Assembly (NCBI RefSeq): GCF_000284095.1
Contig: NC_017068.1
Location: 558,001 to 622,000, forward strand
Direction: 5' to 3'
DNA length: 64,000 bases
From: Selenomonas ruminantium subsp. lactilytica TAM6421
Lineage (GTDB): Bacteria > Bacillota > Negativicutes > Selenomonadales > Selenomonadaceae
Shown: in pieces, positions 1,125 through 63,522 of the stretch
Position numbering within the stretch: the first letter of the stretch is position 1
Layout of the letters: each line of letters begins with the position of its first letter
The notes under the pieces: generated by a model
Databases searched by the model: none
What the model was told of the DNA's origin: nothing
What the model saw: the letters and a program-made list of their open reading frames with translations, nothing else
Made by a program: the position numbers and the translations under genes

Positions 1125-3131
1125 TTAACGTTTCATATTGATCATGGTTTCGAGCATTTCATCACTGACCGTGATGATCTTGGAATTGGATTGGAAACCT
1201 CGTTGGGTGATGATCATATCGGAGAATTCGTTGGCGATATCGACGTTGGACATTTCAAGAGCAGAAGCAGTAATAGTTACGCCTAAGTCAGAAGCTGTGT
1301 GCGGTGTTGGTTCTTTCCCCTCAGGAAAAGAATTCATTGATGCTTGATAAAGACTACTTCCAATTTTGGTAAGGCCTGAAGCATTAGTAAACTGTGCAAT
1401 AGCAATTTGTGCTTCTGTTTGTTTTACACCATTAGTATAAGTAGCAATGATAGTTCCGGAACTATCAATGGACACAGTTTTCAATGTACCCGCTGCATTC
1501 CCATCAGTAGTAGAACTAATCGTGTTTCCTCCAGAAAATTGCGTTAAGCCTGCCAAATTAATTGCTACGGATTGATCATCTGCTCCATTTGTGTAGCCTA
1601 ATGATAACGTGCCATCTCCTGAAACATATTTGCCATTTTCATCGAACGTTAATGATGTCTTATTAAGCGTCACTGATGTAGTTGTACCGTCAGTTTCTGC
1701 AATAGTCGTAGACTTTGCTCCATTAGCTAAGCTTAATTCCCATGTATTGCTAGCAGTCTTGGTAATGATTACTGGCACTGAATGCGACTTACCAAGGCTG
1801 TCATAAACGGTTGATGTCGTGGTTATAGAAGGGTAGAAAGTTTCCGTGCTAGAATAATCCACCCCGGAGAGTCCCGTTAACGTTGTCCCATCACTAGTAA
1901 CAATAGAAACTGATTTTACCTCACTTCCACTAAACAAGAATGTCCCCGGATCGGAACGCGCAATAGTCTCTACATTAGATGTTGAAGTCTTAGTATAGCT
2001 GCTACCTAAAGTTGCAGTAGAATCAGCAGTCGTTTTATGCGTAATCCCATCTATTTTCGTACTTTCTGCAGTAATAGTTGCACCTACATCAGCCGTTCCA
2101 CCAGTAACAGTGAGCGACAATGTAAAAGTATCATTTACAGACCATGCTCCATTAGGCGGAGTAGGCACAGTCACGCTTGTCACATTATCATCACCCGTAG
2201 AATCAAATGTTAATTTAACGTTTCCATCGGGAAGCGATTGTACTTCACTAATTGTCTTGGTGGCCGTGTATATGCTACCAATTTTATATGTACCTGAATT
2301 AAGCGCTGCAGTAGTACCAGTTGCATCCATATCAATATAGCTACCGGGGATGGCATACTTCAATTTAATTTCACCATCATCGCTACCTGTTATTGAACTT
2401 ACAGTGTCTGTCCAAATATCACCTGCAGCACTACCCGTTGTAAAGGTTTTTCCCGGATCTGCGACCTCTGTTGTACCATCAGCCAAGGTAATTGTAATAA
2501 CACCTGCGGCTTCTACAGGTGAATATGATGTTGTATTCGTTGTAGTCCCATCAGCATAACTAACAATGATGCTACCTATTTCATATCCAGTAGTAGTAGC
2601 GTTTATATTATTACTATATGTTGATGTTGTAGTTAATGTAGGATCCATGCTTTTGCCAGCAGCGATAGTTATATTTCCAACATCTCCTGTCGAATTTAAA
2701 ACACCATTTTCAGCCATCCACCCCTGAACATACATACCATTCCCAGGCAATACATAGTTACCATCAGCGTCAAACTCAAATGCACCATCACGGGTATAGT
2801 ACGTTTCATCCCCCGATTTTACAATGAATAGCCCATTTCCTGACAAACACAAATCTGTATTTTTTCCTGTAGCTTGTACAGAACCATCAGTAAAAATTGT
2901 ATCTATACTTGCTACACCAACCCCCAAGCCTATTTGCTTAGGATTGGTACCACCAATGTTTTCCGTAGGTGAAGACGCACCTGATTGTGTTTGACTCAAC
3001 GTATCAGCAAAAGTCACGCGACTGGATTTGAAGCCTGTGGTATTCACATTGGCGATATTATTGCCAATAACATCCATTCTGGTCTGATGGCCTTTTACAC
3101 CGGAAACTCCCGAATACAGCGAACGCATCAT
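1125..3131 (-). CDS. flgE: Flagellar hook protein FlgE, copy 1 (long form, 668 aa)
   Basis: Structural subunit of the flagellar hook, exported through the flagellar type III system. The N-terminus (MMRSLYSGVSGVKGHQTRMD, then GNNIANVNTTGFKS) is the rod/hook signature. The C-terminus (SNVDIANEFSDMIITQRGFQ and ETMINMKR) is the FlgE C-terminal helix. Residues of roughly 140-560 are a long Thr/Ser/Gly-rich domain with low-complexity beta-type sequence, the surface-exposed part of hooks. At 668 aa it is long for the family (usually 400-550). The first 100 and last 110 residues nearly match the second copy at 4150-5697, while the middle does not align. The start has an AAAGGAGAG ribosome site. The coding sequence is visibly more AT-rich in the middle than neighbouring genes. 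The two copies diverge from a recombinase cassette, so only one may be expressed at a time. Confidence 0.93.
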   Translation of the reverse strand: MMRSLYSGVSGVKGHQTRMDVIGNNIANVNTTGFKSSRVTFADTLSQTQSGASSPTENIGGTNPKQIGLGVGVASIDTIFTDGSVQATGKNTDLCLSGNGLFIVKSGDETYYTRDGAFEFDADGNYVLPGNGMYVQGWMAENGVLNSTGDVGNITIAAGKSMDPTLTTTSTYSNNINATTTGYEIGSIIVSYADGTTTNTTSYSPVEAAGVITITLADGTTEVADPGKTFTTGSAAGDIWTDTVSSITGSDDGEIKLKYAIPGSYIDMDATGTTAALNSGTYKIGSIYTATKTISEVQSLPDGNVKLTFDSTGDDNVTSVTVPTPPNGAWSVNDTFTLSLTVTGGTADVGATITAESTKIDGITHKTTADSTATLGSSYTKTSTSNVETIARSDPGTFLFSGSEVKSVSIVTSDGTTLTGLSGVDYSSTETFYPSITTTSTVYDSLGKSHSVPVIITKTASNTWELSLANGAKSTTIAETDGTTTSVTLNKTSLTFDENGKYVSGDGTLSLGYTNGADDQSVAINLAGLTQFSGGNTISSTTDGNAAGTLKTVSIDSSGTIIATYTNGVKQTEAQIAIAQFTNASGLTKIGSSLYQASMNSFPEGKEPTPHTASDLGVTITASALEMSNVDIANEFSDMIITQRGFQSNSKIITVSDEMLETMINMKR

Positions 3132-3171
3132 GATAAATCTCTCCTTTACATCAGCTGTTGTTGCAAATCAA

Positions 3172-3217
3172 GCGACGTTCCTTGTCAAGTCCGTTCCTGC
3201 CAATCCCTGCCGAACGG
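3172..3217 (-). promoter_or_regulatory. flgE1 leader: GGATT-loop hairpin and shared 17-mer (CsrA-like sites)
   Basis: Read on the minus strand, CCGTTC (3217-3212) pairs with GAACGG (3196-3191) around a loop containing CAGGGATT. Then comes TTGACAAGGAACGTCGC (3188-3172), identical to the flgE2 leader, and further on the ribosome site. CAGGGAT and ACAAGGA fit the CsrA RNA consensus (ACARGGAUG-like, GGA in a loop). The flgE2 leader has the same loop on a different stem sequence, which is compensatory change. That CsrA binds here is inference. Confidence 0.5.
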
Positions 3218-3245
3218 TATATAGTTTTTCCCTATGATTAGGCAC

Positions 3246-3273
3246 CGTTCAAAAAACTATACTTTTTTGAAAA
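3246..3273. repeat. Left recombination site (inverted repeat) of the invertible segment
   Basis: The 17-mer at 3257-3273 is the exact reverse complement of TTTTCAAAAAAGTATAG at 4007-4023. The site is itself a near-palindrome: TTCAAAAAA (3248-3256), CTATAC, TTTTTTGAA (3263-3271). The layout of two 12-nt half sites around a 2-nt centre (AT) is the layout of Hin/Gin crossover sites. The serine recombinase gene lies between the two repeats. Confidence 0.8.
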
Positions 3274-3295
3274 TATCCTCTTAAAATAGATGATA
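3267..3295 (+). promoter_or_regulatory. Candidate promoter of the recombinase gene, overlapping the crossover site
   Basis: TTGAAA (3267-3272), a 17-nt spacer and ATGATA (3290-3295), followed by AGGAGG 9 nt before the recombinase ATG. The -35 element lies inside the left recombination site, so a bound recombinase would cover it and could repress its own gene. The -10 match is modest. Confidence 0.45.
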
Positions 3296-3317
3296 TATAT
3301 TTTTAGGAGGTAGATTT

Positions 3318-3914
3318 ATGATAAAAAATTATGGATATGTACGTGTCAGCACCAAGGAACAGAATCCGGATCGTCAGTTGAAGGCTATGGCAGAAGCTGG
3401 CATTGAGTGCAAAAACATCTTCATGGACAAGGAATCCGGCAAGGATTTCGATCGTCCGGCGTATAAACGGATGCTGCGCAAGTTGACTAAGGACTCCGTA
3501 CTGTTTATAAAATCCATTGATCGCTTAGGCCGTAATTATCGAGAAATCATGGAAGAGTGGCGCTATATCACCCAGATAAAGGGGGCAGACATTGTGGTGC
3601 TGGCTATGCCTGTGCTGGATACGCGCCGTCATAAAAATCTGATGGGCACCTTTATCAGTGATCTGGTACTTCAGCTGCTATCTTTTGTGGCAGAAAATGA
3701 GCGTTGTAATATACGTCAGCGTCAGGCAGAGGGTATCGCTGCTGCAAAGAAAAAGGGCGTGCGCTTTGGCCGCCCTCAAAAACCAGTTCCGGATAATTTT
3801 CATTTGCAATGCAAACTTTGGCACAGCGGCCAGTGCACGCTGGCACAGGCCGCTGCCGCTTGTCAAATGCCGCTTTCGACGTTTTATAGCAAGTGCAGAG
3901 ATGTGATGAAATAG
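3318..3914 (+). CDS. Hin/Pin-like serine recombinase (DNA invertase)
   Basis: A 198-residue small serine recombinase, the size of Hin and Gin. The resolvase domain (residues 4-140) has the catalytic serine in YVRVSTKEQ (Ser11) and the arginine motif DRLGRN (about 68-73). The C-terminal region (about 160-195) reads as a resolvase-type helix-turn-helix (CTLAQAAAACQMPLSTFYSK). Enzymes of this size invert DNA between short inverted sites. Here the gene is bracketed by a perfect 17-bp inverted repeat (3257-3273 and 4007-4023) and lies between two divergent flgE genes. The simplest role is inversion of the 3.26-4.02 kb segment and switching of hook gene expression. It has a strong ribosome site (AGGAGG). 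No Fis-type enhancer could be identified. Confidence 0.92.
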   Translation: MIKNYGYVRVSTKEQNPDRQLKAMAEAGIECKNIFMDKESGKDFDRPAYKRMLRKLTKDSVLFIKSIDRLGRNYREIMEEWRYITQIKGADIVVLAMPVLDTRRHKNLMGTFISDLVLQLLSFVAENERCNIRQRQAEGIAAAKKKGVRFGRPQKPVPDNFHLQCKLWHSGQCTLAQAAAACQMPLSTFYSKCRDVMK

Positions 3915-3928
3915 GATACAAAAGATGT

Positions 3929-3943
3929 AATTTTGTGAAAATA
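3929..3943 (+). promoter_or_regulatory. CodY-box-like site upstream of the flgE2-directed promoter
   Basis: AATTTTGTGAAAATA matches the CodY consensus AATTTTCWGAAAATT at 13 of 15 positions. It ends 11 nt before the sigma-28-like -35 element. The CodY protein at 47466-48242 has the same recognition helix region as the Bacillus protein. AT-rich DNA gives chance matches, but this is the best match seen in the window. Confidence 0.5.
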
Positions 3944-3954
3944 AAATTTTTACT

Positions 3955-3981
3955 TAAGAAAATTCCCATTTGCTCCGATAA
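3955..3981 (+). promoter_or_regulatory. Sigma-28-like flagellar promoter inside the invertible segment, reading toward flgE2
   Basis: TAAGAAAA (3955-3962), an exact 11-nt spacer, then TCCGATAA (3974-3981). The consensus is TAAAGTTT-N11-GCCGATAA, so the -10 matches 7 of 8 positions; the -35 keeps TAA. It lies between the recombinase stop and the right inverted repeat. It faces flgE2 in this orientation and would face flgE1 after inversion. No comparable promoter was found in either flgE leader outside the segment. Confidence 0.55.
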
Positions 3982-4006
3982 ACATTGTAGATTAGGGAAG
4001 AAAAGC

Positions 4007-4023
4007 TTTTCAAAAAAGTATAG
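4007..4023. repeat. Right recombination site (inverted repeat) of the invertible segment
   Basis: TTTTCAAAAAAGTATAG, the exact inverse of 3257-3273. Its other half site (AGGTTTCAAAAA) is less symmetric than on the left. The homology to the left flank resumes at 4043-4060 (CATAGG, AAAAACTATA) and continues through the leader into the flgE coding region. Confidence 0.8.
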
Positions 4024-4063
4024 GTTTCAAAAAACTTTCTTTCCATAGGAAAAAACTATAAAC

Positions 4064-4110
4064 GCCGTCATGCAAGGATTCGCAGCACGGCATTTGACAA
4101 GGAACGTCGC
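4064..4110 (+). promoter_or_regulatory. flgE2 leader: GGATT-loop hairpin and shared 17-mer (CsrA-like sites)
   Basis: GCCGT (4064-4068) pairs with ACGGC (4087-4091), and inside it TGC (4071-4073) pairs with GCA (4082-4084), exposing the loop AAGGATTC. TTGACAAGGAACGTCGC at 4094-4110 is identical to the flgE1 leader. Outer stems differ between the two copies yet both pair. CAAGGAT and ACAAGGA fit the CsrA consensus. Control by CsrA is inferred. Confidence 0.5.
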
Positions 4111-4149
4111 CTAGTTCTAACAGTGTATGGGATAAAGGAGAGATTTATC

Positions 4150-5697
4150 ATGATGCGTTCGTTATACTCTGGTGTTTCCGGTGTAAAAGGTCATCAAACC
4201 CGTATGGATGTTGTAGGCAACAACATAGCTAATGTCAATACTACTGGTTTTAAATCCGGTCGTGTAACCTTTGCAGATACTTTGAGTCAGACGCAGTCCA
4301 GCGCAAGTGCTCCAACAGGTAATTTAGGTGGTACCAATCCTAAGCAAATTGGCTTGGGCGTAGGGGTAGCGACTATTGATACATTGTTCACTGATGGTGC
4401 AGTGCAAGCTACGGGAAAAAATACGGATTTGTGTCTGTCAGGTAATGGCCTGTTTGTTGTGAAAAGCGGCAGCGAAACCTATTATACCCGCAATGGCGCT
4501 TTTGAATTTGATGAAAGCGGCAATTATGTTCTGCCGGGAAATGGCATGAAAGTACAGGGGTGGATGGGAACAGACGGTGTAGTGTCAACCACCGGAGCCA
4601 TAGAGGATATTGTCATTCAAACAGGTAAGTCAATGGCAGCAAAGGCTTCAGAAAAAGTAACGTATAGTTATAATTTAAAAGCCAATCCACCAGTTGTCAC
4701 GCAATATTCCTTTACCGATGGTACTAACTCCTATACCAGAACTACCGATGGTTATTGGATTGAGGCATCGGCAACGCAGCCTGTTACGGTTACGTTTAGT
4801 GATGGCACTAAAACTACATATACTTCAGGCACATATACAATCGGTCGCTCTTTACCTGTAACTACGTCATTTAATTTTTATGATAGTTTGGGTTCTGTGC
4901 ATACAGCTACAGTCTTACTGGAAAAGGCTGACGTAGGAACCTTGCAATATACAGATACTAATGGTGATACTATCACAAAAACAGGTACTGCTTGGTCAGT
5001 TTTATTAGGCTCTACAGTAGATGTTGCAGAAACAGACGGTTCTACAACACATTATGATTTAGGTGGAAATACTTTAACCTTTGATGAAGATGGTATTTTG
5101 CGTGAAGCTACTAGTTTTGCTACCCCTACGACATTAACAGCTGATCCAAATACAACGGTAACCACCCCGTCGTATACACCAAGCCAAGTCGGTACTACAA
5201 GTGCGGCTACTATTGCTTTGACCGCTACCATTACTGCACCTAACGGATCTAGCACGCCACAATCAATGACACTGGACTATAGTGGTGTGACATCCTATGC
5301 GGATATTAATACCGTCAATGCGGATGCGGATGGCAATGCAGCCGGTACTTTGAAGAGCATATCAATAGATAGTTCCGGTGTTATTACTGGCGTATACACC
5401 AATAGTGTTAGGCAGTCTGAGGCGCAGGTGGCAATTGCTCAATTCTCCAACGCATCTGGTCTTACCAAAACAGGCAGCAGTTTGTATCAGACATCTAATA
5501 ACTCCGGTACACCTAATATAAAGGCTGCAGCTGACCTTGGCTGTTCCATCACCCCGTCCGCCCTCGAAATGTCCAACGTGGATATCGCTAACGAATTCTC
5601 CGACATGATCATCACCCAGCGTGGTTTCCAGTCCAATTCCAAGATTATCACCACCAGTGACGAAATGCTTGAAACCATGATCAATATGAAACGGTAA
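4150..5697 (+). CDS. flgE: Flagellar hook protein FlgE, copy 2 (515 aa)
   Basis: Second hook subunit gene, oriented away from copy 1. The start is the ATGATG 8 nt after AAAGGAGAG, identical to the start context of copy 1; an upstream in-frame start at 4123 has no ribosome site. Residues 1-100 and the last 110 residues are almost the same as copy 1, including the GNNIANVNTTGFKSG signature and the SNVDIANEFSDMIITQRGFQ end. The central domain (about 150-400) is shorter and unrelated at sequence level, so the two hooks would share assembly interfaces but differ on the surface. In the orientation sequenced it lies downstream of the sigma-28-like promoter at 3955-3981 and is predicted to be the expressed copy. 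A terminator-like hairpin follows at 5707. Confidence 0.94.
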   Translation: MMRSLYSGVSGVKGHQTRMDVVGNNIANVNTTGFKSGRVTFADTLSQTQSSASAPTGNLGGTNPKQIGLGVGVATIDTLFTDGAVQATGKNTDLCLSGNGLFVVKSGSETYYTRNGAFEFDESGNYVLPGNGMKVQGWMGTDGVVSTTGAIEDIVIQTGKSMAAKASEKVTYSYNLKANPPVVTQYSFTDGTNSYTRTTDGYWIEASATQPVTVTFSDGTKTTYTSGTYTIGRSLPVTTSFNFYDSLGSVHTATVLLEKADVGTLQYTDTNGDTITKTGTAWSVLLGSTVDVAETDGSTTHYDLGGNTLTFDEDGILREATSFATPTTLTADPNTTVTTPSYTPSQVGTTSAATIALTATITAPNGSSTPQSMTLDYSGVTSYADINTVNADADGNAAGTLKSISIDSSGVITGVYTNSVRQSEAQVAIAQFSNASGLTKTGSSLYQTSNNSGTPNIKAAADLGCSITPSALEMSNVDIANEFSDMIITQRGFQSNSKIITTSDEMLETMINMKR

Positions 5698-29307: not shown

Positions 29308-29391
29308 GTCATGAAAGCACTTTTATTGACAAGAGAAGTTAAGAAAAGCCTGCCTGTTGACGATATATTATATGCAGGGAGGTGCGTTTTT

Positions 29392-48444: not shown

Positions 48445-48867
48445 ATGTTGGAGCAAATAATGAATGCGTCTAATTTCGATTATCTGTCCCGGGGGCTTGA
48501 GGCCGCCAATATGCGCCACGAAGTCATCAGCAATAATATTGCCAATGTCAATACGCCCCATTTCAAGCGTAGCGGCGTGAATTTTGAGGAACTTCTGGCC
48601 AAGGAATTGCATCTGGATGATGAACCCATGAAGGTGGCCATTGTCCGCACCCATGACCGTCATCTGCCCATTCCGTTTCATGGCAAGGTTCATGCCGTGA
48701 TCGAGGAAGACAATACCACGACTATGCGGGTGGATGACAACAATGTGGATATCGATATCGAGATGGCTGGCTTGGCCAAGAATCAGTTGTATTATAATGC
48801 CATGACAACCCAGCTGGGCGGCTTTATGGCAGAACTGAAGAATGTGATCACCAGCGGACAGACCTAA
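48445..48867 (+). CDS. flgB: Flagellar rod protein FlgB
   Basis: A 140-residue proximal rod protein with the signature RHEVISNNIANVNTPHFKRSGVNF (about 24-47) and the C-terminal NQLYYNAMTTQL helix. It is the first gene of the flagellar operon, about 200 nt after codY. The gap 48310-48444 shows no unmistakable promoter. Confidence 0.95.
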   Translation: MLEQIMNASNFDYLSRGLEAANMRHEVISNNIANVNTPHFKRSGVNFEELLAKELHLDDEPMKVAIVRTHDRHLPIPFHGKVHAVIEEDNTTTMRVDDNNVDIDIEMAGLAKNQLYYNAMTTQLGGFMAELKNVITSGQT

Positions 48868-48899
48868 GCTGGGGATAGAAAGTGCAAAAGGGAAAGACG

Positions 48900-49349
48900 A
48901 TGAGCATGTTTCTGGGGATTGACGCAGCAGCATCAGGGCTTACAGCTGAACGCCTGCGTATGGATGTTATTTCCAATAATATTGCCAATGCCAACACCAC
49001 CCGTACAGAAGGGGGCGGGGCCTATCATCGCCGTTATGTGGTTTTTGAGCCAAGGGTGAAGGATAGTGGTCCGTTTCAGACTTTTTTGAAAAAAGCTGCA
49101 AATAAATTAGAAGCCGGTGACGGCGTCAGAGCTGTGCGTATTGAAAGCGATAATACTCAGGGGCCGCTGGTATATGATCCGGGACATCCGGATGCCAATG
49201 CGGAGGGGTATGTAGAAAGACCAAATGTCAATATGGTGGCGGAAATGGTGGATATGATAACCGCTTCCCGTGCTTATGAGGCAAACACTACGACAATCAA
49301 TGCGGCTAAAGCAATGGTGAGTAAGGCTTTGGATATGGGCAACAAGTAA
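48900..49349 (+). CDS. flgC: Flagellar rod protein FlgC
   Basis: A 149-residue rod protein. It has ERLRMDVISNNIANANTTRT (about 18-37) and the C-terminal NVNMVAEMVDMITASRAYEANTT. The ATG at 48900 is preferred over a GTG at 48882. Confidence 0.95.
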   Translation: MSMFLGIDAAASGLTAERLRMDVISNNIANANTTRTEGGGAYHRRYVVFEPRVKDSGPFQTFLKKAANKLEAGDGVRAVRIESDNTQGPLVYDPGHPDANAEGYVERPNVNMVAEMVDMITASRAYEANTTTINAAKAMVSKALDMGNK

Positions 49350-49375
49350 TGCTTGTGTTTTGAGAGGATAAGGAT

Positions 49376-49678
49376 ATGGAGATTGCACCACTCGCGATGA
49401 CACCGGTGTCCATGCATGCCACCAGTCATTTAGGCGAAACACAGGAACCTAAGGAAGTGAAGAATTTCGGTCAGTATCTGACGGATGCGCTAAAGAAAAC
49501 CAATGGTCTGCAGCTGGAGTCAGAACGGCAGAATGCACTGCTGGCAGCTGGCCGTGTAGAAGATGTATCCCAGGTGGTTATTGCTGCGAAAAAGGCGGAG
49601 ATCGCCTTGCAGCTTACCCTTCAGTTACGTAACAAGGCAGTGACAGCTTATCAGGAGATCATGCGCATGCAGGTATAA
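49376..49678 (+). CDS. fliE: Flagellar hook-basal body protein FliE
   Basis: A 100-residue protein linking the MS ring to the rod. It ends with the typical KKAEIALQLTLQLRNKAVTAYQEIMRMQV helix. Conserved position between flgC and fliF. Confidence 0.94.
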   Translation: MEIAPLAMTPVSMHATSHLGETQEPKEVKNFGQYLTDALKKTNGLQLESERQNALLAAGRVEDVSQVVIAAKKAEIALQLTLQLRNKAVTAYQEIMRMQV

Positions 49679-49718
49679 TGGCTAAGACAGTGTAATTCTA
49701 CGTGAAGGGATTGAGATC

Positions 49719-51308
49719 ATGGGAGATTGGAAAGAGCGGTATAAGGAGCTGCTGGAGAGATTCAGTAAGCGCCAGCGCTATATAATGCTGGGCTCCGCTT
49801 TGGCTATTCTCATTGCCATAATTGGGGTAAGTGCGTGGTATGGCAATAAACCGGATATGGTTCCCTTGTTTACGAACATGGAGACCAAAGATGCCGGCGA
49901 AGTAGCTGCAAAACTGAAAGAAGCTAAAATAGAATACGAAGTGCAGGAAACACGGCAAGGCACGACCATCATGGTTCCATCACGGGATGTGCACAATGCA
50001 CGGCTGGATCTGTCGACTCAGGGGCTCCCGCGGGGCAACAAAGGGTTTGAGATATTCGATGACAGCAAGCTTGGTGTCACGGAATTCCAGAACAGAGTGA
50101 ATTATCTGCAGGCACTGCAGGGAGAACTGACCAGGACTATCGAACAGATCGCGGCTGTGGAGAAAGCGCGTGTACACATAGTCCTGCCAGAGGATAGCCT
50201 CTACAAGAAGAATGAGAAGCCGGCAACAGCATCAATTATGTTGCAAATGCGGCCGAATATGGAATTATCCAAGAAGGAGATCAAGGGAATTGTCAATCTG
50301 GCGGCGAACAGCGTACAGGGACTGAAGCCGGAAAATATCACCGTGGTTGATTCCACCGGGAAGATCCTCAATGATCCGGATGAGAATGAGGAGCAGAATG
50401 TCAGCCTCAAGACCATGACGCAGCTGGAGATGACCAAGAAGGTTCAGGATAATATCCAGAAGAACATTCAGTCCATGCTGGATGATTCCATGGGAGAAGG
50501 CAAAGCCTTTGCCCGGGTCAGTGTGGAACTGGATTTTGATGACCGTACCACGGACAAGCAGACCTTTACGCCCGTGGTGGATGATTCTGGTATCATCCGC
50601 AGCCAGCAGGATATCAGTGAGGCTTATAATGGTACTTCTACCCAGCCAGGCGGTGCGGCAGGAGTTCAGTCCAATGTGCCCGGCTATGTGGCTCAGAATG
50701 CCAATGCCAATGCCGAGTACGAAAAGAAAGAATCCACGAAAAATTACGAGATAAATGAAGAGAAATCCAAGACGGTGGCAGCTCCAGGCTCCATCCGCCG
50801 CCTGACGGTGGCTGTGCTGGTGGATGACTCAGTGACTCCCCAGCAGCAGGACAGCATCATGCGGACGGTGACCAGTGCAGCAGGCATCAATACGGACCGT
50901 GGTGACACGGTATCCGTAGAGCCACTGCCGTTCAGTACGGAGCTTCGCGATAAGCGGGCTGCGGAAGAGAAGGCAGCCAAGGATCGGGAAGACATGATCT
51001 TCTACGGGACCATCGGCGCAATCCTGCTGGTATTGGCAGCCATCGGCGGTTATTTCTACTATCGCCGCAAGAAGAAACTGGAAGCCATTGCGGCCGAGCA
51101 GGAGCGGATTCGCTTGGAGGAAGAAGCAAAGAGGAAGAAGGAAGAAGAAGAGCGGGCTGCCCTTATTGCCGCTGGTGCTATCGAACCGGACGAGCTTTCC
51201 GAAGAGGAACAGCAGCATCTGTCCGAAAAGCAGGCTTTGCAGCAGCTTATCGATCAGCGGCCGGCAGAAGTGGCTATGCTTGTTAAGACTTGGCTGGCGG
51301 AGGAATGA
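49719..51308 (+). CDS. fliF: Flagellar MS-ring protein FliF
   Basis: A 529-residue membrane ring protein. A first membrane helix is at about 26-45 (ALAILIAIIGVSAWYG), followed by periplasmic ring-building motifs such as LDLSTQGLPRGNKGFEIFD and AAVEKARVHIVLPEDS, and a second helix at about 430-450 (GTIGAILLVLAAIGGYFYY). The C-terminus binds FliG. Confidence 0.96.
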   Translation: MGDWKERYKELLERFSKRQRYIMLGSALAILIAIIGVSAWYGNKPDMVPLFTNMETKDAGEVAAKLKEAKIEYEVQETRQGTTIMVPSRDVHNARLDLSTQGLPRGNKGFEIFDDSKLGVTEFQNRVNYLQALQGELTRTIEQIAAVEKARVHIVLPEDSLYKKNEKPATASIMLQMRPNMELSKKEIKGIVNLAANSVQGLKPENITVVDSTGKILNDPDENEEQNVSLKTMTQLEMTKKVQDNIQKNIQSMLDDSMGEGKAFARVSVELDFDDRTTDKQTFTPVVDDSGIIRSQQDISEAYNGTSTQPGGAAGVQSNVPGYVAQNANANAEYEKKESTKNYEINEEKSKTVAAPGSIRRLTVAVLVDDSVTPQQQDSIMRTVTSAAGINTDRGDTVSVEPLPFSTELRDKRAAEEKAAKDREDMIFYGTIGAILLVLAAIGGYFYYRRKKKLEAIAAEQERIRLEEEAKRKKEEEERAALIAAGAIEPDELSEEEQQHLSEKQALQQLIDQRPAEVAMLVKTWLAEE

Positions 51309-51311
51309 CAA

Positions 51312-52343
51312 ATGGCATTTGAAGATATGTATGGCGATGGTGATGAGGAACTCACCAACTCGGAGAAGGCGGCCGTTTTGTTCATTGCTTTGGGGCCGGA
51401 ATATTCGGCGAAACTCTTTCAGCATCTGGCCGATGATGAGATTGAACGCATTACGCTGGAAATCGCTAACCATAAAAAGGTCAGTCAGGAAACCAAAGCC
51501 AAGGTGGTCAGCGAATTTTACCAGATGGCCATGGCCAGTGACTACATTTCCACTGGTGGTCTCGAGTATGCACAGAATGTACTGGAGAAGGCTTTGGGAG
51601 CAGAAAAGGCGATGGAGATTCTCAATCGCCTCACTACCAGCCTGCAGGTTCGTCCTTTCGATTTCCTGCGCAAGACAGATCCTTCTCAGCTCATGAACTT
51701 CATCAACAACGAACATCCCCAGACGATTGCCCTTATCATGGCATATCTGGACCCGGATCAGGCAGCTACCGTACTCGGTGCCCTGTCACCGGAAGCCCAG
51801 GCCGATGTGGCAAGGCGTATTGCCCAGATGGATCGGACTTCGCCGGACATTATCCGGGAGGTGGAGCGGGTGCTGGAGAGGAAGCTGTCTTCCTTGGTTA
51901 CCCAGGACTTCACTACTGCTGGCGGTGTCAAGGCCATCGTGGAAGTGCTCAACCGGGTGGATCGTACCACAGAAAAATCCATCATCGAGACTTTGGAGGT
52001 GGACAATCCGGAACTGGCCGAGGAAATCAAGCGCCTCATGTTCGTATTCGAGGATATCGTGCAGCTGGACGACCGTTCCTTGCAGATGGTTTTGCGCGAG
52101 GTGGACACCAAGGATCTGTCTTTGGCCCTCAAGGCTACGCCTTCGGAGGTAGCAGACAAGGTCTACAAGAATATGTCGAAGCGTGCTGCCGATATGCTGC
52201 GTGAGGAAATCGAGTTCATGGGGCCGGTGAAGATCCGCGATGTAGAAGAGGCACAGCAGAAGGTCGTCAACGTCATCCGTGTACTGGAAGACAAGGGCGA
52301 TATTGTAATTTCGCGTGGACAGGGAGACGAGATGATTGTCTAG
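51312..52343 (+). CDS. fliG: Flagellar motor switch protein FliG
   Basis: A 343-residue rotor protein with NSEKAAVLFIALGPEYSAK, the EHPQTIALIMAYL motif and the C-terminal torque helix region (FEDIVQLDDRSLQMVLREVD). It couples the MS ring to stator and FliM. Overlaps fliH. Confidence 0.96.
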   Translation: MAFEDMYGDGDEELTNSEKAAVLFIALGPEYSAKLFQHLADDEIERITLEIANHKKVSQETKAKVVSEFYQMAMASDYISTGGLEYAQNVLEKALGAEKAMEILNRLTTSLQVRPFDFLRKTDPSQLMNFINNEHPQTIALIMAYLDPDQAATVLGALSPEAQADVARRIAQMDRTSPDIIREVERVLERKLSSLVTQDFTTAGGVKAIVEVLNRVDRTTEKSIIETLEVDNPELAEEIKRLMFVFEDIVQLDDRSLQMVLREVDTKDLSLALKATPSEVADKVYKNMSKRAADMLREEIEFMGPVKIRDVEEAQQKVVNVIRVLEDKGDIVISRGQGDEMIV

Positions 52344-53127
52344 AGTTATCAAAGCCGCGATATGGGAGGAGAATCCTCATCTTATCCATACCCCCGAGCC
52401 GCCTAAGCCCGAGGAAAAGGCGGCGGAGGATAATGGTCTGGATGAAGAAGCCTGTGCCCGTATGCTGGCAGAAATTGCTGCCAAGGAGCAGCGAGCGATT
52501 CAGTTATTGAAAGATGCCAAGGTGGATGCCGAGATCATCAAGCAGGAGGCTAAGGCTGAGCGCGATCGTTATCTGGCGGAAGCCCAAAAGGAGATAGATC
52601 AGAAGAAGGAAGAAGCTGCCGAAATCGGACGGCAGGAAGGTTACGAAGCAGGGTATAAGGATGGAGAGGCCAAGGTCCGAGAGGAACTGGCTGATATCAT
52701 CGCCCAGGGAAGTGCCCAAGCGGAAAAGACACTGCAGGATGCCAAGGCAGCCTGCAAGGATTATGTCCAGCAGGCCGAGGCGGATGTGGTGAAGATTGCC
52801 ATGGCAGTGGTGGAAAAGATCCTGCCCCAGCATTTCATCGATGTGCCGCAGGTGGTGTTGCCATTGGTGCGGGAATCGCTTTTGAAGGTTAAGGATCAGA
52901 AGACGCTGAAGGTTCATGTGTCCCCAGCGGACTATGATCTGGTGCTGATGGCCCGCACGGAATTCCGTGGCCTCCTTACCTATGGTGATGCCGAGATTGA
53001 TATAACTTCAGATCCCAGCATGAAGCCGGGAGATTGTTTGATTGAAACACCAAATGGCACGGTGGATGCAAGGCTGGCCACCCAGATTGAGCTGGTGCGG
53101 CAGGCAGTGAAGAATGTGATGCTTTGA
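52336..53127 (+). CDS. fliH: Flagellar assembly protein FliH
   Basis: A 263-residue regulator of the export ATPase. A long charged coiled coil (about 30-130, EAKAERDRYLAEAQKEIDQ) is followed by the C-terminal FliH/YscL domain (about 150-263). The TTG start overlaps fliG by 8 bp. Confidence 0.9.
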   Translation: MSRVIKAAIWEENPHLIHTPEPPKPEEKAAEDNGLDEEACARMLAEIAAKEQRAIQLLKDAKVDAEIIKQEAKAERDRYLAEAQKEIDQKKEEAAEIGRQEGYEAGYKDGEAKVREELADIIAQGSAQAEKTLQDAKAACKDYVQQAEADVVKIAMAVVEKILPQHFIDVPQVVLPLVRESLLKVKDQKTLKVHVSPADYDLVLMARTEFRGLLTYGDAEIDITSDPSMKPGDCLIETPNGTVDARLATQIELVRQAVKNVML

Positions 53128-53137
53128 GGTTTTCACA

Positions 53138-54478
53138 ATGGATGACATGGGGGAAAAAAAAACATTTCAACTGAATATCACGAAGTTCATCGATGCTATC
53201 CATGAGTGCTCCAGTGTGAAACTCACAGGCAAGGTTACGCAGGTCATCGGTCTTGTCATTGAGTCCCAGGGGCCGACGGTGAGTGTGGGCGAGCTTTGCT
53301 ATATCAGCTCCCATAACCCAAATGTTCCGCCGATTCCCGCAGAGGTCGTGGGGTTCCGGGAAGGTTATGTGATGCTGATGCCCGTTGGGGAAATGCAGGG
53401 CATAGGCCCTGGCTGTGAAGTCACCGCGGCGCAGAAGATGCTCAACGTCCGGGTGGGGGAAGAGCTTTTGGGCCGGGTGCTGGATGGCCTGGGCAATCCC
53501 ATTGACGGCAAGGGACCGATTCTGTGCAAGCAGGAATATTCCCTGCAGGCAGATCCGCCGCATCCCCTGTCCCGCCCGCGTATTCATGACAGCCTCTACG
53601 TGGGAGTGCGGGCCATCGATGGCCTGATCACCATGGGGGAGGGACAGCGTATCGGCATTATGGCCGGTTCCGGTGTGGGCAAGTCCACCCTGCTCTCCAT
53701 GATTGCCCGGAATACCGAGGCGGATATCAGTGTTATCGCGCTGGTGGGAGAACGTGGACGTGAAGTCCGAGATTTCATTGAGCGTGACCTAGGGGAGGAA
53801 GGCATGAAGCGTTCCGTGGTGGTGGTGGCCACATCAGATCAGCCCGCTTTGGTGCGTATCAAGGGGGCCATGACAGCCACGGCCATAGCCGAATATTTCC
53901 GGGACAAGGGGCGCAAGGTCATCCTCATGATGGATTCGGTCACCCGCTTTGCCATGGCCCAGCGCGAGGTGGGGCTGACTATTGGGGAGCCGCCGGCAAC
54001 CCGCGGCTATACCCCGTCGGTATTTGCAATGTTGCCCAGGCTGTTGGAGCGGGCGGGAACCAGTGCAACAGGTTCCATTACAGGCATCTATACGGTACTG
54101 GTGGATGGCGATGACATGAATGAACCCATTGCTGATGCCGTGCGTTCCATTCTGGATGGTCACATCGTCTTGTCCCGCAATATTGCGGCGCAGAATCATT
54201 TCCCGGCCATTGATATCATGCCCAGCGTCAGCCGTGTCATGAATGAGGTGGTATCGCCGGAACATCTGAAGGCGGCCCAGCAGATGCGTCAGCTGATGGC
54301 TGTGTATCGCGATGCGGAGGACCTGATTCATATCGGGGCCTATGTCAAGGGTTCCAGCGCCAAAATCGATGAGTCCATCCAGAAGATCGATGCTATAAAT
54401 GAATTCCTCTGTCAGGGGATTTATGAAGTGGATACCTACGAGGACACGGAAAAGAAACTGATGCGTATTTCCGGGTGA
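53138..54478 (+). CDS. fliI: Flagellum-specific export ATPase FliI
   Basis: A 446-residue F1-like ATPase of type III export. Walker A is IMAGSGVGKSTLLSM (about 169-183) and Walker B region ILMMDSVTRFAMAQRE. It works with FliH and FliJ, encoded on either side. Confidence 0.96.
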   Translation: MDDMGEKKTFQLNITKFIDAIHECSSVKLTGKVTQVIGLVIESQGPTVSVGELCYISSHNPNVPPIPAEVVGFREGYVMLMPVGEMQGIGPGCEVTAAQKMLNVRVGEELLGRVLDGLGNPIDGKGPILCKQEYSLQADPPHPLSRPRIHDSLYVGVRAIDGLITMGEGQRIGIMAGSGVGKSTLLSMIARNTEADISVIALVGERGREVRDFIERDLGEEGMKRSVVVVATSDQPALVRIKGAMTATAIAEYFRDKGRKVILMMDSVTRFAMAQREVGLTIGEPPATRGYTPSVFAMLPRLLERAGTSATGSITGIYTVLVDGDDMNEPIADAVRSILDGHIVLSRNIAAQNHFPAIDIMPSVSRVMNEVVSPEHLKAAQQMRQLMAVYRDAEDLIHIGAYVKGSSAKIDESIQKIDAINEFLCQGIYEVDTYEDTEKKLMRISG

Positions 54479-54484
54479 TAGGGC

Positions 54485-54952
54485 ATGAAGAAGTTTAAAT
54501 TCCAATTGGAAACCCTGCTACGGGTTACCCGGCGCAAGAAGGATGATGCAGAGCGGGAATTTGCCGCAGCTTCCCGCAGGCTGGAAGAAGCCCGGGAAGG
54601 CTTGCAGACTCTGCTGGCAGAGATGCAGAAGGGACAGCAGGACTATGATGCCCTATCTCAGGAGGGCGTCAGGGTCACCGTAGGAAGACTTATGGCTTTC
54701 AATAGTTTCTTTGCCTGGAAACGGGAACAGATTGAGATGCAGCAGGGTATTGTGCTGCAGATGAAAGGTGAAAAGCAAAAAAAACTCAAAGCCCTGATGG
54801 AAATCATGAGCTATTTGAAGAGCATAGAGCAGCTGAGGGAACGGCGTTGGCAGGAATACCAGGCCGAAGCCTTGCAGGAAGAGCAGAAGATGCTGGATGA
54901 GATTGGACTCCAGCTTACCATGCGTAGGAGAAGGGAAGGGACGGTATCATGA
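54485..54952 (+). CDS. fliJ: Flagellar export protein FliJ
   Basis: A 155-residue coiled-coil protein, rich in Glu/Gln/Arg/Leu, beginning FKFQLETLLRVTRRKKDDAERE, as FliJ does. It overlaps the next gene by 4 bp. Confidence 0.9.
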   Translation: MKKFKFQLETLLRVTRRKKDDAEREFAAASRRLEEAREGLQTLLAEMQKGQQDYDALSQEGVRVTVGRLMAFNSFFAWKREQIEMQQGIVLQMKGEKQKKLKALMEIMSYLKSIEQLRERRWQEYQAEALQEEQKMLDEIGLQLTMRRRREGTVS

Positions 54953-55578
54953 TGGATTTGACCGGTGTGCGTCAGGTACAGGCAAGAATTGCCCAATTGC
55001 AGGAACAATTCGGTATGCCTGGGAACATTCCTGGTGCCAATTTTCCCAAGACGCTGGAGAAGGAAATTCAAAAGACAATGGGGGGCGAAGCGGGTAAAGC
55101 CGTGACACAGGCGGAAAAGACACAGCCACTGCCAGATGTGCAGAAGACAGAGCCGGTGAAGGGTAAGGCAAAAGCTGACAAGGTGATGGGCAATCTGCCA
55201 TTGGCGGATCAGAACCTCAGCACGCTTATCGAATCTGCTGCCCGGAAGTATAAGGTGGATCCCAAGCTTGTGGCTGCAGTAGCCGAGGTGGAATCCAATG
55301 GCCGTCAGGAGGCGGTTTCCCAGGCCGGGGCCATCGGTGTCATGCAATTGATGCCGGATACAGCGGCTTCACTGGGGGTAGATCCTTACAATAAGCAGCA
55401 GAATGTGGAAGGCGGTGCCAAGTACCTGCGGCAGATGCTGGATACTTTCGGCGGTGATCTCAAAAAGGCCGTGGCCGCATACAATGCCGGTCCGGGGGCC
55501 GTAAAAGCCTATGGTGGCATTCCACCCTATAAAGAAACCCAGAATTACGTGAACAAGGTATTGGACATCTATAGATAA
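54949..55578 (+). CDS. Flagellar-operon lytic transglycosylase
   Basis: A 209-residue protein with a helical N-terminal half (about 1-85) and an SLT domain: LVAAVAEVESNGRQEAVSQAG (catalytic Glu near 110), GVMQLMPDTAASLGV and AAYNAGPGAVKAYGG. It has no obvious signal peptide, so it may leave via the flagellar system. It probably cuts peptidoglycan for rod passage. In Bacillus, fliK and flgD stand near this place. Confidence 0.87.
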   Translation: MMDLTGVRQVQARIAQLQEQFGMPGNIPGANFPKTLEKEIQKTMGGEAGKAVTQAEKTQPLPDVQKTEPVKGKAKADKVMGNLPLADQNLSTLIESAARKYKVDPKLVAAVAEVESNGRQEAVSQAGAIGVMQLMPDTAASLGVDPYNKQQNVEGGAKYLRQMLDTFGGDLKKAVAAYNAGPGAVKAYGGIPPYKETQNYVNKVLDIYR

Positions 55579-55595
55579 CGAAGGCAGGTAGGAAA

Positions 55596-56246
55596 ATGGC
55601 AGCAGCGAAGAAGAAAAAAAAGAAAAAAGGCAGCAAAATAGTAAAAGTGCTATTGGTGCTCTTCCTGCTGTTGGTTCTTATAGTAGGAGGTTTTGCTCTG
55701 GGGGTCTATCTGCAGCTGATTGACACCAAGGATGCCAATGAGAAGCTGAAACTCTATGATTTGCCGGTGGTTGGGGAGTACTTTGTGCGCCCGGCACCCA
55801 GCGAGGAGGAGATGGAGAAACTGCCTGTAGAGGATGCCAAACCCAATGCTAACAAGGACAAAGACCTGAAAACGTCAGACAAAGATAAGAAAGATGCCAA
55901 AAAGATTGTTATAACCAAGGAAGAAATCGAAAAACAGATGAAGCAGCGGGAAGCAGAGGAAAAGAAGCGTGTTTCCAAGCTGGCCCGTCTGTACAATCAG
56001 ATGAAGCCTAAAGATGCCGCTAAGGCCATGAACGAGCTGGATGATGATATGTGTATCGCCATTTTCCAGCGGATGGATGAAGCAGTGGTGGCCAAGATCC
56101 TGACGGCTTTCGATGAGGGCAAGACGGCCCGGATAACCCGGATCATGTATGCGGGGACACAGAAGGAAGCGAATACGGAGGAGGATATCCGCCGTATGCT
56201 GGAGGAACAGGCCCAGAAAAAGAATGCGGAAGAAGCGCAGCAATAA
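55596..56246 (+). CDS. YlxF/MotE-like flagellar-operon membrane protein
   Basis: A 216-residue protein: a Lys-rich N-tail, one membrane helix (about 16-41), a charged linker and helical region, then an MgtE-N-like domain (KLARLYNQMKPKDAAKAMNEL, about 127-147; IFQRMDEAVVAKIL). This order is that of YlxF in Bacillus and MotE proteins. It is the last gene before a terminator. Confidence 0.8.
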   Translation: MAAAKKKKKKKGSKIVKVLLVLFLLLVLIVGGFALGVYLQLIDTKDANEKLKLYDLPVVGEYFVRPAPSEEEMEKLPVEDAKPNANKDKDLKTSDKDKKDAKKIVITKEEIEKQMKQREAEEKKRVSKLARLYNQMKPKDAAKAMNELDDDMCIAIFQRMDEAVVAKILTAFDEGKTARITRIMYAGTQKEANTEEDIRRMLEEQAQKKNAEEAQQ

Positions 56247-56259
56247 CAGTGTGAACTCG

Positions 56260-56292
56260 CTCCTGCTGGCAGAAATGCCGGCAGGAGTTTTT
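56260..56292 (+). terminator. Terminator ending the flgB-ylxF operon part
   Basis: CTCCTGCTGGC / GCCGGCAGGAG, followed by TTTTT. Confidence 0.88.
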
Positions 56293-56343
56293 AGTGTAGC
56301 GTTAAAATACCATTAAAAAGCGATTAAATTGGGACATAGCCCC

Positions 56344-56372
56344 TTGCATTTTCAAAAAAGAAATAAGATAAT
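56344..56372 (+). promoter_or_regulatory. Promoter of the amidase gene
   Basis: TTGCAT, a 17-nt spacer and GATAAT, 33 nt before the amidase ATG. Confidence 0.7.
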
Positions 56373-56405
56373 AAAGTATATGTGTCTGAACAGGGGAGGA
56401 GTTCC

Positions 56406-57608
56406 ATGAAAAGACTATTCTTTTTGCTATATATCACGGTGCTGGCTGTTGTGTTTCCTTTTGCTGCGCTTACAGCTGAGGCCAGTGACTTTGGAGACAG
56501 AGTCAGCGGTATGGCAGAAATAACGGGCATCCGGGACAGCAGTGATGCCGATAAAACCCGGATTGTCATTGATGCCAGCAAGCCGGTGACTTATAAAAAG
56601 ATGGTGCTCTCTGCCCCAGACCGTGTAGTCATCGATATTGCCAATGCCTGGGTTTCACCGAAATTGGACAAGCAGCTTGATCTGGACACGACTTTTGTGG
56701 GGACAGTGAAGATTGCCCAATTCGATCCCCAGACGGTCCGTGTAGTGGTGGAAACCAAAGTGGGACGCAATAATTACAAGGTCTTCGCCTTGAATAGCGG
56801 CACGGTTCCCGGGCGTGTTGTGATGGACTTTGGCAATCTGACGGATTCCACCGGGGCTAAGATAGATCTGCCGGAAAAGGCACCGGTGAGCAAGCCGAAG
56901 ACGGAAAAAGTTCAGCCCAAACCGGCAAAGCAGGAAAAGGCGCAAAAGCAGGAAAAAACGGCGCAGCCTTCCAATAAGGAAAATAATAAAGATGATAAGG
57001 AGATGGACGAAGAACTGGCAGGCATTACCGGGTTGAAGGGGCGCAAGATTGTCCTGGATCCTGGTCATGGCGGCAGTGACTCGGGGGCTATCGGTCCCAC
57101 GGGGGTAATGGAAAAGAGCGTTACCCTGCGGGTGGCCAATGAAGTGCGCCGTCTGCTGGTCAAGGAAGGGGCCACGGTCTATATGACGAGGGAGGCCGAT
57201 ATCGAAGTGTCACCGAAGCGTGCTAAAGCCACGGATATCGAGGAACTGCAGGCTCGCTGTGATGTTGCCAATGAGGTCAAGGCCGATATCTTTATCTCCA
57301 TTCACATGGATTCCTTCACCAACCGGGCTGCCAAGGGGACTACAGGCTATTACTACTCCTTGGGCGACAAGCGTTCCCGAATCCTGGCGGATAAGATCCG
57401 TTCCGGTGTCATCGATCAGATCGGCACCCAGAGCCGGGGCACCCAGAGCTGCAATTTCTACGTGGTGAAGCATACGGATATGCCGGCAACTTTGCTGGAA
57501 GTGGCCTTTATCTCCAACGAGCAGGAAGAGAAGCTGATGGACAGTGAAGATGGCATCCGCAAAGCCGCACAGGGCATTGTGGATGGCATTGCTGATTATT
57601 TCGGCTAA
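56406..57608 (+). CDS. N-acetylmuramoyl-L-alanine amidase with AMIN domain
   Basis: A 400-residue exported cell-wall hydrolase. Signal peptide 1-27 (LLYITVLAVVFPFAALTAEAS). An AMIN domain (about 35-150) targets peptidoglycan, then a Lys/Gln/Glu/Pro-rich linker (about 155-205), then an Amidase_3 domain (about 210-400) with VLDPGHGGSDSGAIGPTG, a zinc His, FISIHMDSFTNR and LLEVAFISNEQE. AmiC-like in layout; role in daughter-cell separation or envelope remodelling. It stands in the middle of the flagellar genes with its own promoter. Confidence 0.92.
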   Translation: MKRLFFLLYITVLAVVFPFAALTAEASDFGDRVSGMAEITGIRDSSDADKTRIVIDASKPVTYKKMVLSAPDRVVIDIANAWVSPKLDKQLDLDTTFVGTVKIAQFDPQTVRVVVETKVGRNNYKVFALNSGTVPGRVVMDFGNLTDSTGAKIDLPEKAPVSKPKTEKVQPKPAKQEKAQKQEKTAQPSNKENNKDDKEMDEELAGITGLKGRKIVLDPGHGGSDSGAIGPTGVMEKSVTLRVANEVRRLLVKEGATVYMTREADIEVSPKRAKATDIEELQARCDVANEVKADIFISIHMDSFTNRAAKGTTGYYYSLGDKRSRILADKIRSGVIDQIGTQSRGTQSCNFYVVKHTDMPATLLEVAFISNEQEEKLMDSEDGIRKAAQGIVDGIADYFG

Positions 57609-57647
57609 GAGAACAGAAGGATAAAAGAAAGGATTTTACAGGTACCA

Positions 57648-58847
57648 ATGGAAGCACAGAAAAAAGAAATGACGCAGGCAGAGAGCCTGGCCCAGATGAT
57701 GGAAGCAGATATGGAGGAGCGTAAGAAGGCACTCTATCGCCATAAGATGCCCGCGAAGAACGATCTGCAGTCGATGCTGGAAGCCATGACCAAGGCTGAG
57801 CTGGATGATATCCGCTATAATCTCAATGTCAGCGGTGTCAGCTCGCTGAAGAAGGCGGAGCTGGCTGAGAAGCTGGTGCCGGAAATCCTGAATTTCGCCC
57901 GTCTCTGGTTGCCGTCTATCCTGTTGGAGGAATACGAATGCTTCCAGCATCTTATTCTGGAGAAGGGCAAGAGCAGCAAACTGCGTGATGATGATGTACG
58001 CTTGGATTACCTGCGCGGTTTAGGTTTCCTCTCCTGTGCCAAGGTTGAGGACCAGCTGGTCTGGTATATGCCGGAAGAGATCCGCGCCGAATTCAAGAAG
58101 CTGGATTCCCCGAACTTTGAGGCACTGGCTACCATGAATACGGAGATTACCCGCCTGACGGCAGGCTGCCTCTTCTACTATGGCTACATGAATTACGAGG
58201 AGCTTTACAATACGGTAGCCGGTCAGCTGGAGCCGGATCAGCGGGAAAATCTTTCCTTCAAGGATTTTGTCGGCGTGATGCTCAATGCCTCCTGTTGGAC
58301 GAATACCATTGTGGCGCTGCCCCAGGGCGTGAAGTATTACACGCTGATTGACGAATCTGCACTGGAGGATGAGCAGCGCAAGCACAGCAATCTGGATTTT
58401 GCGAAGTTTACCTATACCCAGCTGTTTGAGGCTGGTGCTGACAACCATATCGATGCTACGGACGAGTATAAGGATCTGGCGCAGTTCTTCATGAAGGAAC
58501 ATGACTGTGATGTGCTGAAGGCTGCGGATATCACCGGGGAAATCTTCATCCTGCTGCAGAACGGCGGCAATCTGCAGGAAGCGGCAGAATATCTGGAGCA
58601 GTTGGGCATGATGGCGGATGAGCGCAAGATGAAGGCCGTGGTGCCCCTGCTTATCGCTTATAACAATGAGACGCATCTCTGGCCCTTGAAGGGACATACT
58701 CCCAGTGAGCTCTTTGCCAAGAGCGGGATGGGCAAGGTGATTCCCTTTGCAGAAGTCCATCGCCAGAAAGTGGGGCGCAATGATCCTTGTCCCTGTGGCA
58801 GCGGTAAGAAATATAAGAACTGCTGCCTGGCGAAGGATGAGAACTGA
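57648..58847 (+). CDS. SEC-C motif protein with N-terminal SAP-like region
   Basis: A 399-residue cytoplasmic protein. The C-terminus is a clear SEC-C zinc motif VGRNDPCPCGSGKKYKNCC (about 375-393), as in SecA tails. Residues 40-75 (MTKAELDDIRYNLNVSGVSSLKKAELAEKL) resemble a SAP/Rho-N helix pair that can bind nucleic acid. The large middle part is not recognised. It ends one base before the MATE gene start. Confidence 0.8.
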   Translation: MEAQKKEMTQAESLAQMMEADMEERKKALYRHKMPAKNDLQSMLEAMTKAELDDIRYNLNVSGVSSLKKAELAEKLVPEILNFARLWLPSILLEEYECFQHLILEKGKSSKLRDDDVRLDYLRGLGFLSCAKVEDQLVWYMPEEIRAEFKKLDSPNFEALATMNTEITRLTAGCLFYYGYMNYEELYNTVAGQLEPDQRENLSFKDFVGVMLNASCWTNTIVALPQGVKYYTLIDESALEDEQRKHSNLDFAKFTYTQLFEAGADNHIDATDEYKDLAQFFMKEHDCDVLKAADITGEIFILLQNGGNLQEAAEYLEQLGMMADERKMKAVVPLLIAYNNETHLWPLKGHTPSELFAKSGMGKVIPFAEVHRQKVGRNDPCPCGSGKKYKNCCLAKDEN

Positions 58848-60205: not shown

Positions 60206-60218
60206 ATTTTTGAAAATT
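60204..60218 (+). promoter_or_regulatory. Weak CodY-box-like site before flbD-fliL
   Basis: AGATTTTTGAAAATT matches the CodY consensus at 12 of 15. It overlaps AAATTTTG/CAAAATTT, an inverted repeat. The gap 60206-60328 holds little else: a GCCGAAAT motif near 60262 resembles a sigma-28 -10 but lacks a spaced -35. Confidence 0.3.
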
Positions 60219-60328
60219 TTGCCAGAAAAACTTCAAAATTTAAAAGGGAAAAAGGCGAACCTTGCCGAAATTAGAGAGAATAAGAAGACGTGCCGGATGT
60301 GTATGTGAAAGGTAAGGAGAGAAAGAGC

Positions 60329-60529
60329 ATGATCAAGCTGACAAAGTTTAATTCCCAGACAAATAAAAAAGGAGAATTCGTGCTCAATGCCGAAATAATA
60401 GAAACGATAGAGGAAACGCCGGATACGGTGATCACCCTGACCAACGGCAAGAAGTTCATTGTGGAGGAAGCCATGGATGAAATCGTCCGCAGGGTGATGA
60501 AATACCGCCGGGCACTCCATCAATTTTGA
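60329..60529 (+). CDS. flbD: FlbD/SwrD-like flagellar protein
   Basis: A 66-residue protein, IKLTKFN at the start and a DTVITLTNGKKFIVEE core, as in the FlbD family that in Bacillus (SwrD) boosts motor power. The ATG at 60329 follows GGAG. It restarts the flagellar gene order before fliL. Confidence 0.88.
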   Translation: MIKLTKFNSQTNKKGEFVLNAEIIETIEETPDTVITLTNGKKFIVEEAMDEIVRRVMKYRRALHQF

Positions 60530-60594
60530 TGTGGACAGATCCTCATCAGCTATTATAAAAGTGAAAGACATTACGATTATGGAGGAATAAACCT

Positions 60595-61107: not shown

Positions 61108-61143
61108 GAGTGTTCGTATTCCAGCGGAAAGGAGGACGTAAAT

Positions 61144-63412: not shown

Positions 63413-63444
63413 CTCCCTTGGGGCCGTAGGACGTAGAGAAGTTC

Positions 63445-63473: not shown

Positions 63474-63522
63474 AAAATCATTGAACTAAGTCGGTTGTTT
63501 TTAAGATGAGGAGAGATGGAAC

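Follow-up and report, generated by a model that had tools for sequence, protein, structure and literature searches.

Two divergently oriented genes for the flagellar hook protein FlgE were identified in the analysed stretch of DNA, which has a length of 64,000 nucleotides and is called the window in the following. The gene flgE1 (1125 to 3131, minus strand) codes for 668 amino acids and flgE2 (4150 to 5697, plus strand) for 515 amino acids. Both proteins match the same four Pfam families, which are Flg_bbr_C, FlgE_D2, Flg_bb_rod and FlgE/F/G D1. Their identity amounts to 61% of the shorter protein and is 26% in the middle, after removal of 180 N-terminal and 160 C-terminal residues, so that the ends of the two hook proteins are alike and their middle parts are different.

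The two genes flank a segment that is bordered by inverted recombination sites. The left site, TTCAAAAAACTATACTTTTTTGAA, is located at 3248 to 3271 with its dyad centre between 3259 and 3260, and the right site, TTCAAAAAAGTATAGGTTTCAAAA, at 4009 to 4032 with its dyad centre between 4020 and 4021. From species comparison, in which homologous sites sit at orientation changes in relatives, the 761 bp from 3260 to 4020 are inferred to be invertible, with the ends placed at the site centres. Inside the segment lies the gene of a small serine recombinase of 198 amino acids (3318 to 3914, plus strand; Pfam Resolvase, 2.1e-29), which is presumed to be the invertase. It is followed by a sigma-28-type promoter, TTAAGAAAATTCCCATTTGCTCCGATAA (3954 to 3981, plus strand), with the -35 box TTAAG at 3954–3958 and the -10 box CCGATAA at 3975–3981. 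In the present orientation flgE2 is inferred to be ON and flgE1 to be OFF. The distance from the end of the -10 box to the start codon of flgE2 is now 169 nt, and a computed inversion places it 168 nt from the start codon of flgE1.

The leader of flgE2 (4024 to 4149, plus strand) and that of flgE1 (3132 to 3247, minus strand) are 78% alike over 112 columns. A hairpin with GGA in its loop is conserved in the flgE2 leader (4064–4091) and in the leaders of nine other flgE copies, but only one of its 11 pairs changes on both sides, and the support by covariation is therefore weak. As the genome contains two CsrA homologues, a control of flgE translation by CsrA is conceivable. Two other readings of the leader were rejected, namely a remnant of a TIGR02530 gene, since the matches comprise only 9–18 nt, and a sigma-70 promoter (TTGACA), of which neither hexamer is conserved.

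The sigma-28-type promoter and its statistics

An earlier note on this DNA had proposed a sigma-28-like promoter at the end of the invertible segment. The motif it named, TAAGAAAA-N11-TCCGATAA, is present at 3955–3981 on the plus strand with exactly this spacing. As claimed, it lies between the dyad centres of the two sites, points toward flgE2 and agrees with seven of eight -10 positions, having one mismatch to the octamer GCCGATAA, the -10 consensus of sigma-28. The site resembles FliA/SigD promoters of late flagellar genes in its -35 box TTAAG, its -10 box CCGATAA and the 17 nt between TAA and CCGATAA. It differs from them in that it precedes a hook gene.

The motif at 3954–3981 exceeds chance. 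It is the sole exact match of TTAAG-N16-CCGATAA in the window; with up to two mismatches 8 matches were found where 3.34 were expected, one of them without mismatch, and 4 of 100 shuffles reached 8. For scoring, a matrix was built from ten other sites of the own genome (G000), with the target left out. These sites have the form TTAAG/TTAAC-N15/16-nCGATA. Five of them precede flagellin genes, and the other five precede flgM, a flgG-like gene, a fliK-like gene, a YjfB-like gene and an unlabelled frame of 117 aa; several of these gene labels are our assumption. The target obtained 17.1 bits, which is just under the range of the training sites on their own matrix (17.8–23.5 bits) and the second best score in the 64-kb window, after a site at 29339; the next one has 13.4 bits. 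When the 761-bp segment was replaced by first-order Markov copies (300 of them), the best score averaged 8.1 bits with a maximum of 14.8, and none reached 17.0. The matrix scores are somewhat circular, because the training sites had first been found by a similar pattern. By its boxes, its spacing and its match to the flagellar-type sites of its own genome, the motif fulfils what is required of the sequence of a sigma-28 promoter; a transcription start after the -10 box and dependence on sigma-28 are predicted.

On the other strand of the segment, facing flgE1, the best sigma-28-like site scores 5.0 bits, and the flgE1 leader holds none of the 12 best matrix sites of the window. The statement that the promoter is the only element that makes the inversion meaningful can be upheld as far as tested; it has to be qualified in that the recombinase gene, the own promoter of which is unidentified, also lies inside the segment. 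A sigma-70-like pair, TTGAAA-18-TACAAT (4013–3984, minus strand), overlaps the right site and faces inward. Five pairs of this kind were counted between 3100 and 4200, compared to 2.9 expected, and the spacing of this one changes in relatives.

The genome pattern suggested for finding further promoters, TAA-N16-CCGATAA, is one base short, N17 being correct. With up to one mismatch it gave 192 matches in the own genome and 241 for the reversed-pattern control, and is therefore uninformative. TTAA-N17-CCGATA, again with up to one mismatch, was too loose as well (219 versus 250), and exact TTAAG-N15/16-NCGATA gave 31 matches versus 14. An initial count of just two exact sites in the genome was dropped, as a third one exists at C1:2133702. 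This site (G000:C1:2133702-2133728) was considered as a flagellin promoter in the OFF position and rejected, since it reads away from the neighbouring flagellin match and into a short frame, presumably YjfB-like; no long inverted repeat was found flanking it.

Orientation and conservation in related species

Both orientations of the segment were found among related species. Outside the segment, both hook genes included, the genomes G143 and G129 are collinear, and they carry the part with recombinase and promoter on opposite strands. The same holds for G143 and G016, with the difference that the second hook gene, after its first half kilobase, belongs to another type. In both cases the orientation changes at the recombination sites. 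One end of the reversed match is within about 40 bases of a site; the other end is broken in G143, where an insertion that contains a PemK-like gene lies ahead of the second site. This toxin-like gene (L064:7339-7671) thus lies inside the invertible segment of G143, beside the recombinase. In G143 and G141 the promoter points toward the type-a hook gene, in G016 and G129 toward the partner of this gene. The type-a gene of G141 sits on the flank with the HAD gene, a position taken in G143 by the other hook gene. This indicates that larger rearrangements or misassembly also occur. A past inversion is thereby established between species; inversion within a strain is inferred, as no reads showing both orientations are at hand.

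In all six genus genomes aligned (G000, G143, G141, G016, G129, G126), the -35 box TTAAG, the -10 box CCGATAA and the following 12 bases, ACATTGTAGATT, are invariant, and the spacer between the boxes drifts. Together with the matrix score from the own genome, this supports the proposal of a sigma-28-like promoter at the segment end. A signature of 20 bases, TTAAG-N15/16-CCGATANANATNNTAGATT, was searched in 189 family genomes. It was found in 13 of them, all among the 22 of the genus, with one copy each, and its reversed control had no match. All 13 places adjoin flgE. The signature had been written from known copies, so that 12 of the 13 matches were to be expected; what the search adds is the copy in G087 and the absence of exact copies elsewhere.

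Five of the 13 places are switches with the recombinase inside (G000, G016, G129, G143 and G141, whose contig stops a short way into the second hook gene). In G126 a locked form is present, with a remnant of the recombinase and the promoter facing the single flgE2-like gene. G087 has the same promoter directly before flgE, without an adjoining recombinase and without a recombination site within 400 bases of the promoter. The remaining six (G104, G072, G099, G118, G080, G109) are small cassettes of about 95 bp, with the recombinase outside and the promoter pointing away from a TIGR02530-like gene and flgE; the match to the TIGR02530 model was checked for one of them (L070). A seventh small cassette, in G060 (L047/L071), has a decayed promoter. 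Switch-less, locked and small-cassette states occur in the genus next to the full state with two genes, and together they form a natural series for how such a switch arises. The link between promoter and invertible segment, which the earlier note had also drawn, agrees with the reversal of the segment between collinear flanks and with the promoter kept before flgE in the switch-less relative.

That the motif arose by chance and the sites serve another purpose, e.g., excision of the recombinase segment, is extremely unlikely. The central two bases of the sites (AT) are the same on both strands, from which we infer that they alone do not forbid deletion, but no random copy of the segment reached 17.0 bits and every signature match adjoins flgE, even if only G087 was new among them.

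A further explanation is that the segment flips and flgE2 is mainly read through from the promoter of the recombinase gene itself, with the sigma-28-like motif playing a minor role. The recombinase gene and flgE2 have the same orientation, and no strong hairpin 3′ of the recombinase gene was found in the window, so that read-through into flgE2 is possible. In four relatives, however, strong hairpins are located at this position (z -4.6 to -8.9), the motif is invariant, and in G087 it precedes flgE although no recombinase adjoins. We regard this explanation as very unlikely.

It is likewise unlikely, in our view, that this strain holds only the locked relic of a switch, with flgE1 as a silent reserve copy. 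Locked or switch-less forms do exist in G126 and G087, and the promoter decay in G060 points in the same direction, but in the window the recombinase frame, both sites, the promoter and both hook genes are intact, and the two orientations coexist among related species.

Among solved structures, the nearest relatives of the recombinase are the Sin, gamma-delta and Tn3 resolvases and entries named DNA-invertase. From a longer set of matches, 93 recombinase loci (L031-L063, L260-L319) were taken. Six of them were excluded, four for lying at contig ends, one as a short match and one as a duplicate. Where flgE or flagellin follows within 1 kb (16 loci), the 260 bases after the recombinase gene contained a sigma-28-like site of at least 12 bits 13 times; among the 71 other loci there were 7 such cases (Mann-Whitney p 4e-8, which is too favourable, since related loci enter it as if they were independent). 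The three flagellar loci below 12 bits are L280 (10.9 bits), L038 (9.4) and L047 (4.1). In two other genera a cassette precedes a flagellin-like gene, with the promoter facing that gene (L042/L082 and L038, the latter with merely 9.4 bits). Relatives of the recombinase thus adjoin site pairs of varied content, and the sigma-28 kind occurs mostly with flagellar genes. Three distant loci from a scan of genome contigs are without flgE. At L039/L279 (G027) a recombinase gene and two sites with a sigma-28-like site of 16.0 bits between them were observed, and no flagellar gene was recognised downstream. The own genome encodes a second recombinase, 55% identical (L081:7027-7611, G000:C1:643026), which is followed by genes that we take to be of polysaccharide type. 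Among loci with comparable identity, some have site pairs that score low for sigma-28, but four reach 12.5–14.2 bits after the recombinase gene (L060, L263, L264, L273).

A proposed switch between two hook genes

The reading that we prefer, and hold to be very probable, is a Hin-like phase switch acting on the hook, with the only outward-facing sigma-28-type promoter that was found located on the invertible segment of 761 bp. Transcription, the dependence on sigma-28 and switching within the strain are inferred, and there are no RNA or protein data. The recombinase would recognise the two inverted AT-rich sites with their TATA core, presumably cleave at their centres, and flip the segment. In the present orientation, RNA polymerase with sigma-28 would start a few bases after 3981, cross the right site and the leader and transcribe flgE2; in the other orientation flgE1 would be transcribed alike, at nearly equal distance. 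A search of G000 (estimated 100% complete) with the FlgE N-terminus revealed the two flgE genes and no third; two further matches were taken as FlgF and FlgG. With no further hook gene found, the switch would decide between two hooks for the cell to build. Judged from the sequence, flipping a promoter between two hook genes probably allows the bacterium to exchange a core component of its flagellum.

The general picture of such a switch is given by Hin/fljBA of Salmonella, where Hin switches the flagellin gene fljB together with a repressor of fliC. Shared with it are an inverted segment that contains both the gene of a serine recombinase and a promoter, the inverted sites at either end and a flagellar structural gene downstream. 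Of the features that define a Hin-type switch, a small serine recombinase gene in or beside the segment is present, inverted sites at both ends are present by sequence (no cleavage data exist), and both orientations occur, between species only. Control of flagellin is absent, as both neighbours are FlgE. The system would work like Hin/fljBA and is not filed as such for this last reason; one promoter would alternate two divergent hook genes instead of a flagellin, and the recombinase is closest to Sin and the gamma-delta resolvases. It can probably be likened to the swapping of the filament in Salmonella, with the predicted action on the hook. Hin, its hix sites and Fis, and the requirement of Hin for Fis and an enhancer, are described in the accessible part of PMC3798978.

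Two other switches are comparable. In the sap system of Campylobacter fetus, too, an invertible segment with a single promoter lies between divergent homologous genes. The sap system differs in that these are S-layer genes, in its larger segment and in the lack of a flagellar sigma-28 promoter. For Clostridioides difficile, the part of the source that was available describes an inversion by RecV upstream of the flgB operon that leads to flagellar phase variation. This is likewise an invertible control of flagellar genes, whereas the locus described here would offer a choice between two hook genes.

To our knowledge, the flagellar phase switches described so far either alter the filament or turn the flagella as a whole on or off. 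Among the matches listed in the openly accessible literature, no report of a switched hook gene flgE was found; the accessible part of PMC4490391 deals with methylation mutants of Helicobacter, and that of PMC11868660 has no mention of 'hook' or 'flgE'. If the hook is swapped in a cell in which no other hook gene was found, a core mechanical joint would be under variable selection, for which phage, antibody and bending stiffness are candidates by inference.

In Escherichia coli and Bacillus subtilis the hook gene is an early gene. By the textbook rule, sigma-28 is freed only after the hook has been completed. A precedent for sigma-28 before fliK-flgD-flgE may exist in Treponema. The accessible part of PMC9481697 does not show it. 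The own genome encodes sigma-28, with FliA matching TIGR02479 above the cut-off at G000:C1:636062, as well as FlgM, and the flagellin N-terminal domain is matched 11 times in it. As FlgM is present and a hook would be needed before sigma-28 is released, some other early transcription of flgE may exist; either an early escape of sigma-28 or a helper promoter comes into question. The wider claim is that the hook is phase-variable, one sigma-28 promoter alternating the only two hook genes so that each cell has either one hook or the other, the two differing in their surface domains, and that hook synthesis lies downstream of the sigma factor released by hook completion. We consider this only slightly better supported than its opposite. 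If true, the usual order of hook before sigma-28 would have to be relaxed or replaced in the genus, and with a hook gene under sigma-28 in the presence of FlgM, the textbook checkpoint could be tested directly in a new group.

Further genes of the hook module may be under sigma-28 control as well. The gene flgD (G000:C1:732349) is preceded by a fliK-like gene, which we name tentatively by its position and the product of which matches no NCBIfam model; the two (G000:C1:729.8-732.8 kb) lie behind an exact TTAAG-N16-CCGATAA. A sigma-28-like site of 16.7–19.1 bits starts 43–52 nt before the fliK-like frame in all eight loci scored. The G000 site among them was in the training set (L198, G000:C1:724000-740000), and the G143 site was missed by the script. 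Judged by these upstream sites, the hook module seems to be under sigma-28 control throughout the genus. In G016, G129 and G143, a fliL-like gene comes after flgD, without an intervening flgE.

The flgD gene lies outside the flagellar operon of the window (48445 to 63885, plus strand), which comprises the open reading frames flgB, flgC, fliE, fliF, fliG ... fliL, fliM, fliY and cheY, mostly named on our own assumption, and in which no flgE was found. At 56382–60205, the place of the fliK-like gene, flgD and flgE in the operon of G104, it contains genes that are presumably amidase-like, SEC-C-like and MATE-like; the fliK-like gene and flgD of G000 are more than 100 kb away from this place.

Finally, the best-scoring sigma-28-like site of the window (29339–29367, plus strand, 19.1 bits) is located shortly before a start codon at 29392. 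Neither the 137-aa product starting there nor the 244-aa frame at 29969 matches a Pfam family, and for the 137-aa product there is no match among the NCBIfam models either. The site is a probable second sigma-28 promoter, and the two frames are possibly unknown genes of the flagellar regulon.
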